Below are positions 8,341-44,717 of a stretch of DNA of 50,226 nucleotides, piece by piece. This DNA comes from Akkermansia muciniphila (GTDB lineage Bacteria > Verrucomicrobiota > Verrucomicrobiia > Verrucomicrobiales > Akkermansiaceae), in NCBI GenBank assembly GCA_945883695.1, contig CAMCYK010000014.1:1-50226 (forward strand), written 5' to 3'. A model generated the notes under the pieces. The model did no database searches. It was not told where the DNA came from and worked only from the letters and a program-made list of their open reading frames with translations. Numbering within the stretch: the first letter of the stretch is position 1; the number at the start of each line of letters is the position of its first letter. The position numbers were made by a program, and so were the translations under genes.

Positions 8341-8600
8341 TCAACCGCAACGCGGTTGCCTCGTAAAGCCCGGGGTTGTCGCGACGAGGGAGCGACGACC
8401 CCGGGTAGGGCCGGATTCCAGGATTCCAACCCCGAAGCGGGTTGCCTCGGCGGGCCCCGCCCTCGGGCACCGCATCACCCATCCGGCGGGCCCGAGGCAA
8501 CCCGCTTCGGGGTTGGCAATGCCTGCGGGGTGAACCCGGGGTAGGACCTCCGCTGTCGGTCCAACCCCGGGCTTTAGGAGGGAACGGCGTTGCCGTTGAA
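8341..8600. repeat. Nested palindromic repeat element (REPIN-like)
   Basis: Outer arms at 8341-8378 and 8563-8600 are inverted copies matching at 34 of 38 positions. Inside lie a hairpin at 8369-8405 (arms of 14 bp, one mismatch), a second at 8535-8573, and a perfect 25-bp inverted repeat (8426-8450 against 8492-8516) around a 41-nt centre. Each outer arm contains a mini-hairpin, AACCGC-GTT-GCGGTT on the left and AACGGC-GTT-GCCGTT on the right; the C:G to G:C change is compensatory. The element fills much of the 700-bp gap between the lipase and HAD genes. It looks like a transposase-mobilised REP cluster. Confidence 0.75.
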
Positions 8601-31893: not shown

Positions 31894-31960
31894 TTGAACA
31901 GGAGCAAACGGAAGCAACGGAGTTGCATTTGATTCTCGGTTGCCTCGGGTTGCTCCTGTC
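31894..31960. repeat. Palindromic intergenic repeat, GAACAGGAG family, copy 1 (divergent)
   Basis: TTGAACAGGAGCAAACGG at the left and GGGTTGCTCCTGTC at the right form an imperfect inverted repeat. The same GAACAGGAGGnAAC...CGGAG arm recurs at 43913-44046, 44471-44553 and 44634-44717. This copy is the most divergent. Confidence 0.6.
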
Positions 31961-43912: not shown

Positions 43913-44046
43913 GTTTGAACAGGAGGAAAGGGAGGGAACGGAGAGTTTGAATTTGATCCGTTTCGTCCGGTTGGCGGGGTGGCGTTGAAATCGAAGGGAA
44001 TCGATCAGGGATCCTCCGTTTCCTCTGTTTCCTCCTGTTCAAATCC
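43913..44046. repeat. Palindromic repeat pair, GAACAGGAG family, copy 2
   Basis: Forward arm GTTTGAACAGGAGGAAAGGG (43913 onward) and inverted arm CTCTGTTTCCTCCTGTTCAA (ending near 44043) face each other across about 65 nt. The inverted arm overlaps the 3' end of the GxxExxY ORF and encodes its last residues GFEQEETEETEDP. Confidence 0.75.
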
Positions 44047-44450
44047 TTCCGGGGAATTCGCGCCGGGAAGAATCAGCCGGTGGACGCCGGCAGTGAGCTT
44101 CATCTCATTGAAATTGATGAGGAGGCCGACCGGGACGTTCAGAAGTTTCATGTAGCTGAGGAGTTGGGCCTTGTGGATCGGAAGGATTTGTTGCGCGGCT
44201 TTCACTTCCACGAGAACACAACCGTCAACGAGCATGTCGAAGCGGAGCGGCTCTTCGCGGGTGAAGCCTTTGTAGTGGATCTGCACGCTCTTCTGGCTGA
44301 CGCAGTCGAGCTGGCGGAGTTCCAGTTCCTTCAGCAAGCACCACTCGTAGATGGACTCGATGAGTCCCGGGCCTTTGTCGCGGTGGACTTCGATCGCTCC
44401 ACCGATGATGGATTCGGTGAGGGATGAGGCTTTCGGGAAGAGAGGGTCAT
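44005..44450 (-). pseudogene. GxxExxY / PD-(D/E)XK-nuclease-like protein, apparently frameshifted near the start
   Basis: The frame ending at 44005 reads LTESIIGGAIEVHRDKGPGL then IESIYEWCLLKELELRQL, with the name-giving G-L-I-E-S-I-Y motif, followed by RFDMLVDGCVLVEVKAAQQI, a PD-(D/E)XK-type Asp...Glu-Val-Lys core. Family size is about 125-140 residues, so the domain is complete. No start codon lies in frame before LTESII; an ATG at 44450 leads into it only if the CTCTCT at about 44438-44443 is read two bases shorter. A TTG at 44337 would remove the first conserved block. The C-terminal 13 residues come from a palindromic repeat. The gene lies between copies 2 and 3 of that repeat. It may be inactive, slippage-controlled, or mis-assembled. 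Confidence 0.7.
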
Positions 44451-44470
44451 GGTTATTGGGAGAAAAGCCT

Positions 44471-44553
44471 TCTGAACAGGAGGGAACAGAGGAAACGGAG
44501 AGGATCCGGTCGAAATGAATCTCTGTTACCTCCGTTTCCTCCTGTTGAAATCG
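44471..44553. repeat. Palindromic repeat, GAACAGGAG family, copy 3
   Basis: Left arm CTGAACAGGAGGGAACAGAG and right arm TACCTCCGTTTCCTCCTGTT are imperfect inverted copies around about 20 nt. It lies directly upstream of the GxxExxY ORF. Confidence 0.75.
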
Positions 44554-44633
44554 TTGTGGTTTCGAGGAGACCCGACGGTCATGGCTTCGGTGAGACCGGA
44601 GGCTTTGGAGAACAAGGGGTGCATGGGGGATTG

Positions 44634-44717
44634 GATTTTGAACAGGAGGGAACAGAGGAAACGGAGATGGTCAGTTTCAGAAGAATCTCTGTCGCCTCCG
44701 CTATTTCATGTTGAAAT
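44634..44717. repeat. Palindromic repeat, GAACAGGAG family, copy 4
   Basis: Left arm TTTTGAACAGGAGGGAACAG matches copy 3 almost exactly; the right arm (GAATCTCTGTCGCCTCCGCT, then ATTTCATGTTGAAATT) is more decayed and abuts the stop codon of the 44719-47076 sulfatase. The 268-bp gap 44451-44718 consists mainly of copies 3 and 4; I see no gene in it. Confidence 0.7.

Follow-up and report, generated by a model that had tools for sequence, protein, structure and literature searches.

Genes annotated as GxxExxY usually lie between inverted palindromic arms built from rows of short units, and we propose, at a probability of roughly 0.62, that gene and palindromes together form an element akin to the REPIN/RAYT pairs (hairpin-forming doublets of repetitive extragenic palindromic, or REP, sequences and their REP-associated tyrosine transposases), driven by an unrelated nuclease that would recognise its own row of units. 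The element from which this proposal starts lies at 43913-44717 of a 50,226-nucleotide (nt) stretch of Akkermansia muciniphila DNA (assembly GCA_945883695.1, contig CAMCYK010000014.1, positions 1 to 50,226), the whole of which is called the window below. To our knowledge, GxxExxY is an annotation without a settled function. The evidence comprises the bracketing of the gene by inverted arms and its generality, the iterated design of the arms, their match to the protein, the co-occurrence of gene and repeats (for two dispersed arm types), polymorphism at orthologous sites and purifying selection. A sequence-only reading of the window had likened a nuclease-like gene within its own palindromes to the REP/RAYT pairing with another enzyme, a likeness that is strongly supported here and that generalises.

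The GxxExxY locus of the window

Three palindromes around an open frame of PD-(D/E)XK type had been described at this locus, and both the aligned arms and the profile matches bear the description out. The frame matches PF13366 (E 1.2e-36, 126 bits, cut-off 22) and TIGR04256 (GxxExxY; 132.9 bits, cut-off 35). The idea that the palindromes surround the gene holds for the bracket itself and is refined in its layout: a single palindrome follows the gene and two precede it, the more distant of these being the result of duplication. The features are as follows.

44005-44436, minus strand: GxxExxY / PDDEXK_3 open frame, with the domain match at 44074-44421 (profile search)
43914-44043, no strand: palindrome 1, on the 3' side of the gene, with 30-nt arms of the GAACAGGAGG type, 70 nt apart
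44471-44550, no strand: palindrome 2, on the 5' side of the gene, with 27-nt arms and an 18-nt loop
44636-44717, no strand: palindrome 3, an 82-nt duplicate of palindrome 2 at 80%
44576-44624, minus strand: decayed second copy of the GxxExxY N-terminus, 73% to 44403-44447, with the ATG kept at 44622-44624
About 31896-31960, no strand: gene-less diverged palindrome of the same type as the window arms, a pattern match elsewhere in the window

The arms of palindrome 1 (43914-43943 and 44014-44043) are 90% complementary and those of palindrome 2 (44475-44501 and 44520-44546) 85%, while palindrome 3 has an intact left arm and a decayed right one; the arms of all three have GAACAGGAGGnAACAGAGG in common. 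A search of the window with the arm pattern, allowing up to 3 mismatches, gives 7 matches where shuffles predict 0.04, and the gene-less palindrome listed last corresponds to the divergent copy that had been placed near 31894. As was also recognised earlier, a repeat arm forms the end of the frame, whose final codons (GFEQEETEETEDP, stop) are encoded within palindrome 1. Palindrome 3 and the decayed N-terminus stem from a partial tandem duplication of palindrome and gene start, at a spacing of 166 nt. Beside another GxxExxY gene of the same genome (L008:1861-2212, G000:C230) there is a 176-nt tandem duplication (95%) that repeats the downstream arm, and the arms seem prone to such local duplication.

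A genome of the same genus (G118) carries an element 84% identical to that of the window over the gene and palindrome 1. This copy has an in-frame ATG at the corresponding position, its frame runs into an arm, and it is without upstream palindromes (read by eye). Between the two GxxExxY copies, the ratio of nonsynonymous to synonymous substitution rates (dN/dS) is 0.12.

Bracketing across genomes and phyla

Four GxxExxY genes were found in the window's genome (G000, 92.6% complete), each bracketed by a different inverted repeat; those of the other three genes are GAACCGCCAAGACGCCAAGTGCGCCAAG, GAACCGCGAAAAAACGCGAAATACGCGAAA and AACCACAGATTTAACAGGATGAACGCAGATGG, and in every case the inverse lies across the gene. 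The four repeats are unrelated in sequence and alike in design. The notion of a single dedicated repeat family therefore fails, since the other three genes have other repeats, and the window's repeat is confined to its locus: all 5 of its matches in the whole genome at up to 2 mismatches fall there. At up to 3 mismatches none of 117 genomes of the window's bacterial family stands out, and counts with the reversed pattern as control are similar.

The bracket was scored by local alignment of the 300 nt upstream against the reverse complement of the 300 nt downstream, with a cut-off of 30 that was set after the first scores were seen. Among the matches listed for the family, 110 of 137 scored loci are bracketed (12 of the 150 listed genes lay outside the loci compared and 1 was dropped for a short flank), as are 69 of 79 scored GTDB loci from many phyla (1 of 80 dropped, short flank). 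The titles of the latter name Verrucomicrobia, Planctomycetota, Acidobacteria, Bacteroidetes, several proteobacterial groups, Cyanobacteria, Armatimonadetes, Parachlamydiales, Spirochaetota, Gemmatimonadetes and Methanosarcinales, and many of these loci come from metagenome-assembled genomes (MAGs). Two of the loci (L134 and L135) hold GxxExxY proteins that are 88% identical, in MAGs with similar assembly names labelled Bifidobacterium breve and Sphingobacterium thalpophilum, which suggests that the Bifidobacterium-labelled MAG (L134) is mis-binned or mislabelled.

Shifted windows within the same GTDB loci gave a bracket in only 1 of 384 cases, and PIN genes from the same family of genomes in 0 of 29 (1 of 30 dropped, short flank). 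These counts bear out the prediction that repeats would be enriched around GxxExxY genes, at distances of up to 300 nt. Y1 transposase genes of the family, taken as a positive control, have brackets of classical REP look in 21 of 30 cases. A further control, swapping flanks between loci, was discarded as unsuitable because loci share arm types, and the shifted windows and PIN genes were used instead. Several loci under the cut-off still show units by eye, and a few over it (e.g. L103) do not look iterated. In most of the gene-bearing copies neither arm reaches further than about 230 nt from the GxxExxY match, too short a distance to accommodate a transposase gene.

Generic intergenic palindromes, such as terminators or REPs, might be expected at any small gene, and the genomes do hold such structures: 20 regions of 6-14 kb contain, in their remaining parts, 13 hairpins of score at least 38, one of them of the ACGGAA type. 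The shifted-window and PIN counts argue against chance as the source of the brackets, as does the finding that two bracketed comparator families carry other classes of motif, and at this sample size we consider this explanation refuted by the two controls.

Iterated arms that follow the protein lineage

The arms share a design of about three short units (CGCCAAG, CACGGAA, ACAGATT and others) placed 8-10 nt apart. In an autocorrelation of 158 arms, self-similarity was 0.35, 0.41 and 0.35 at lags 8, 9 and 10, against 0.28-0.29 when shuffled. The 122 arms of CGCCAAG type read in the order (A/C)AC, CGCCAAG, one base, CGCCAAG, two free bases, CGCCAAG; information content is 0.26 and 0.04 bits at the free spacer bases and 0.69-1.43 bits over the six positions counted in the third unit, which lay outside the search pattern. 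Such a pattern is the look that would be expected of a row of binding sites.

Arm sequence also varies with the protein. Across pairs from different genomes with less than 60% protein identity, arm similarity correlated with protein identity at r 0.24, where the maximum of 500 permutations was 0.10; for the outer flank the value was r 0.02 and for the inner spacer a weak r 0.10. The set comprised 214 proteins, without duplicates or stop-bearing copies, of which 175 had an arm score of at least 30. Arm types, assigned by a short pattern list of our own making, could be given to 169 of these 175 genes. The protein tree of the 169 requires 36 changes of arm type, where shuffling gave a mean of 102 and never fewer than 91. 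At 63 cross-phylum loci there were 19 changes, against 30 when shuffled (minimum 24). Physical linkage alone could give part of this match, and a matching that is maintained is suggested because neighbouring DNA, equally linked, does not follow the protein likewise.

Of the 107 family GxxExxY arms, 106 had their nearest counterpart in another genome at a gene of their own class; so did 13 of 22 arms of IVP genes and 14 of 21 of Y1 genes, the classes being unequal in size. Each gene lineage has arm sequences of its own, built to one common design.

Dispersed gene-less copies

Two arm types were sought in the 117 family genomes, with counts that include the arms at the genes themselves. Type 1 reached at least 8 copies in 7 of the 10 genomes in which one of the GxxExxY loci compared has a matching arm, in 7 of the 53 with other GxxExxY genes and in none of the 54 without GxxExxY; for type 2 the numbers are 6/15, 8/48 and 0/54, respectively. 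The 22 genomes rich in either type all have a GxxExxY match, against 63 of 117 overall (Fisher 2.5e-7), and within-genus shuffles gave p 3.5e-4 for both types together and 0.009 for type 1. The sequence-only reading had named two patterns that would speak against a pairing; frequency far from the genes is indeed found for the dispersed arm types, as in REPINs, and abundance (8 or more copies of either type) in genomes lacking the gene is not (0/54). Taken with the co-variation of arm and protein, this co-occurrence favours recognition by GxxExxY proteins of their own arms.

The dispersed copies in 20 regions are largely gene-less inverted pairs, mostly with a short loop, and two pairs are longer, their arm starts lying 333 and 392 nt apart; the regions were mostly chosen for close plus/minus matches and so describe the pairs, giving no paired fraction. 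The window itself has three further strong hairpins (score at least 40) at 8351, 18826 and 35626.

A comparable arrangement occurs in another phylum, on a 1.1-Mb plasmid of Gemmatirosa kalamazoonensis (Gemmatimonadota; NZ_CP007129), where a profile built here found three GxxExxY genes, two of them bracketed. The cores of their arms have 53 copies (1 for the reversed control) and 38 copies (0 for the reversed control), of which 36/53 and 30/38 stand in plus/minus pairs 43-131 nt apart, and both arm families are among the replicon's most frequent 15-mer families. Other repeat families abundant on this replicon, some of them of the same look, are without a GxxExxY gene there. One 15-mer family, ACGAATCGTTGCAGC, has 51 copies (e.g. 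at 797820-813158), and the repeats AACCACAGAGGACAC (18 copies) and CCTGTTCATCCTGTC (16 copies) have the look of the GxxExxY type and no gene on the replicon.

Polymorphism at orthologous sites

Two intergenic junctions, named by reading of their genes, were compared among relatives of the window's genome. At a metH-like junction, for which sequence came from 17 of 18 genomes of the same genus, a GxxExxY element is present in G000, G039, G064, G117 and G006, with two arm types among them. G114 has a gene-less palindrome within 219 nt, G118 and G108 have apparent remnants, and G056 has an element with a four-helix IVP gene (PF05635, 4.1e-10) and iterated palindromes of its own. G019 and G079 have 32 nt and no element, and G101, G120, G030, G093, G085 and G048 have 12-56 nt, with flanks less well aligned and no element. 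At a batA/batB-like junction, read in 10 genomes and assignable in all of them but G085, G000 and G039 carry a gene-less CGCCAAG palindrome, the genes abut without an element in G006, G019 and G064 (the end of the G079 stretch reads likewise), and G118, G114 and G108 have other palindromes.

Arms with a gene and arms without one thus behave as insertions, because orthologous sites are gene-bearing, gene-less or empty in different relatives. The same intergenic sites host different classes of palindromic element in different species (loci L339-L368 and L389-L398), and the two junctions look like insertion hot spots.

The dispersal of copies bears on a further explanation, in which GxxExxY proteins bind the palindromes for autoregulation or for hairpin trimming, and copies spread by rare recombination and slippage. 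Units 8-10 nt apart with free spacers do resemble binding sites, the frames of the window and of G118 extend into an arm, and the purifying selection on the family described below would suit a housekeeping role. Dozens of remote copies, many of them inverted pairs, nonetheless need a route of dispersal, as do the gene-less and empty orthologous sites, and autoregulation alone does not provide one; we judge this explanation improbable.

The GxxExxY protein

The protein is about 115 residues long, and its AlphaFold2 model, from 71 aligned sequences, has a predicted local distance difference test score (pLDDT) of 95.5. The only Foldseek matches below 1e-3 were two chains of SSO0001 (4ic1; E 2.8e-4), which we take to be a Cas4 protein, followed by lambda exonuclease and the Cas4-family ACE1 at about 0.02 and an archaeal Holliday junction resolvase at 0.18. 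No solved structure was found among the sequence relatives of GxxExxY, and the predicted fold is Cas4/RecB-like. Among the 71 sequences (the window copy and 70 relatives, gathered with conserved stretches of one subgroup), E25, D65, E75-x-K77 and Q89 are invariant and Y93 is near-invariant. L114, which has stops, was left out of this alignment, as were L101, L125, L127, L142, L144, L149, L151, L158 and L159. In 33 family members E21, D61 and K73 agree, with E71 and Q85 at 90% or more. There is no sign of an Fe-S cluster, because a single cysteine (C31) is near-invariant among the 71 sequences.

Over 48 close pairs with unsaturated synonymous divergence, dN/dS ranged from 0.03 to 0.28, with a median of 0.08 and 46 pairs at or below 0.16; another 46 of the 94 close pairs were saturated and gave no ratio. 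These values point to strong purifying selection on the protein. With one query protein, GxxExxY was found in 7 of 72,556 plasmid records and 0 of 50,697 phage records, and we rejected a plasmid- or phage-borne gene on these counts. A defence system was likewise rejected, PADLOC having given only weak Cas4 matches.

The fold also bears on an account at the level of RNA, in which the arms pair in the transcript, the element is excised from RNA or tolerated in it, and GxxExxY acts on the RNA hairpin. The layout does resemble that of the intervening sequence (IVS) elements, in which terminal inverted repeats surround an S23 open reading frame (ORF; PMC4990558). The GxxExxY loci read in detail sit between protein genes, the rRNA context not having been systematically searched, and the best solved fold match is of Cas4 type, followed by DNA exonucleases, though tRNA-splicing endonucleases appear lower in the list. 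Action on RNA is therefore, in our estimate, very improbable.

Proposed mechanism and weighing of the evidence

We infer recognition, cutting and dispersal by the GxxExxY protein along the following lines. The genome would hold a gene-bearing master copy of about 0.5 kb (arm, gene, inverted arm) and, at other places, gene-less miniatures in which some tens of nt separate arm and inverted arm. The product, a minimal Cas4/RecB-like PD-(D/E)XK nuclease, would bind the short units of its own arms, with several subunits probably sitting on a row of units. It might then nick or cut the hairpin or cruciform that both arms would form in single-stranded DNA, for example at a replication fork, with the cut placed near the outer AACC/GGTT ends, after which the host's replication and repair could insert the freed or copied hairpin at new intergenic sites. 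Gene-less copies would originate by internal deletion and be moved in trans.

Several observations weigh against this proposal. Cutting, binding and movement were not observed in this analysis of sequence and structure prediction. The window's own repeat is not dispersed, and its GxxExxY gene lacks the usual start, with no in-frame ATG, GTG or TTG upstream of 44337, so that this copy may be broken. One of the bracketed Gemmatirosa genes was matched as two pieces in different frames and may be broken too, and the third gene of that plasmid is unbracketed, with one iterated palindrome downstream only. Fifteen combinations of genome and type have at least 8 copies and no matching arm at the GxxExxY loci compared (for example G000, with 18 copies of type 2, and G009, with 45), a count that includes some incomplete assemblies and to which 12 of the first 150 genes listed, lying outside those loci, did not contribute. 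Within genera, the cognacy of type 2 with its gene was not significant (within-genus shuffles, p 0.07). Comparison of the two orthologous sites did not reveal a convincing target-site duplication: none is evident at the metH-like site, and a repeat of about 10 nt in G039, the only one at the batA/batB-like site, might be due to the start codon there. Four-helix IVP genes, which are not nucleases, are bracketed in 22 of 30 cases with other motifs, and a nuclease is therefore no precondition of the bracketed layout. Y1 transposases (PF01797), finally, occur in every one of the 22 repeat-rich genomes, against 91 of the 117 in all, and on presence alone they could be the movers.

The similar layout at IVP genes and the wide occurrence of Y1 transposases sustain the main rival, in which shared machinery (host replication and repair, or a Y1 transposase) moves the palindromes and GxxExxY, like IVP, is cargo. 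That IVP brackets have the same layout, and that GxxExxY and IVP elements occupy the same orthologous site in different species, is consistent with such cargo. The arms are, however, specific to their gene class in 106 of 107 cases and follow the GxxExxY protein lineage, the Y1 genes in the same genomes carry other, classical REP-type motifs, and the repeat-rich genomes G029 and G064 are without a TIGR02436 match. The lack of any genome rich in either type among the 54 that are GxxExxY-free, together with the strong purifying selection on the protein, also argues against a passenger, and we hold this rival to be unlikely.

Among the IVP/S23-type loci themselves (L279-L308; TIGR02436) many arms are iterated, with GGGGTCAGGGGTTGAGG, GTTGATGGTTGAGAG and AATTAGGAATTAGG as examples, and IVP genes with their inverted repeats are an apparent second pairing of gene and palindrome. 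The window's genome has 28 Y1_Tnp matches, the largest number among the matches listed in the 117 genomes, and several repeat systems may coexist in it.

A wider form of the proposal is that many phyla share a hitherto unrecognised superfamily of self-spreading prokaryotic repeats. Its minimal Cas4-like nuclease would read the units of a row through a code that is evolvable and particular to each lineage, and would spread the miniature palindromes that match, with four-helix IVP genes as a second, parallel class at the same sites; this we advance tentatively, at somewhat less than even odds. Were the pairing of GxxExxY protein and arms true, it would give the family a function, show that dispersal of the REPIN kind also arose with a nuclease of unrelated fold and account for a large class of intergenic repeats, and the natural pairs of protein and arm would let a short-unit DNA recognition code be read.

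Comparison with known systems

No description of GxxExxY together with repeats was found in the open-licence literature. The family is mentioned in passing beside a reverse transcriptase, in a passage that does not concern repeats (PMC8934634), and six arm sequences had no match in that literature outside animal biology.

Miniature inverted-repeat transposable elements of insertion sequences resemble the gene-less copies in being short and in having terminal inverted repeats. They differ in that the gene-bearing GxxExxY copies read here are without an insertion sequence transposase and that neither of the two sites compared has a clear target-site duplication.

The IVP elements (TIGR02436, PF05635) and the 23S rRNA IVS share with GxxExxY elements a small gene between inverted arms, and one IVP element stands at the same site as the GxxExxY element of its relatives. 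Their motif class is unlike that of GxxExxY arms, and the fold of their protein is presumably unrelated. The S23/IVP ORF of the 23S rRNA IVS lies inside a 23S helix, whereas the GxxExxY gene of the window lies between two sulfatase-like genes (named by reading of the translations).

With Cas4, RecB and lambda exonuclease the GxxExxY protein shares a predicted core fold and a catalytic pattern that includes what we take to be the Q-x-x-x-Y motif, as well as a weak match to Cas4 profiles. In contrast to Cas4, it does not have the cysteines of an Fe-S cluster, and its length is about 115 residues.

TIRYT genes and TIRtrons come closer in layout, with a gene within long terminal inverted repeats that can form families, moderately abundant in some genomes (PMC3733652). 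There the gene is a tyrosine transposase, and the passages of that account consulted make no mention of GxxExxY, of PD-(D/E)XK genes or of iterated units of 8-10 nt (PMC3733652).

The closest likeness is to the REP/REPIN-RAYT systems, which also have a gene flanked by inverted palindromes, dispersed gene-less inverted doublets (here for two types of the family and two of Gemmatirosa, not for the window's repeat) and lineage-specific repeats, and which are rare on plasmids and not seen in phages, as GxxExxY was with its one query. The enzyme there is a Y1 HUH transposase and here a PD-(D/E)XK nuclease with a predicted Cas4-like fold, and GxxExxY arms are rows of about three short units. REP repeats carry a GTAG (or CGTC) tetranucleotide tag at one end (PMC3733652). 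This tag is absent from the CGCCAAG-type arms, whose outer end is (A/C)ACC in the 122 arms, and by eye from the other types; it is motifs of classical REP type, unlike those of GxxExxY, that stand at the Y1 genes of these genomes. We therefore rejected membership of RAYT or TIRYT on enzyme and motif, and do not file GxxExxY elements under REPIN/RAYT because both the Y1 enzyme and the GTAG/CGTC tag were looked for and not found. Because they have no component in common with any repeat system known to us, we regard GxxExxY elements as categorically new, with a mechanism that we infer and a layout that most resembles that of the REPINs.

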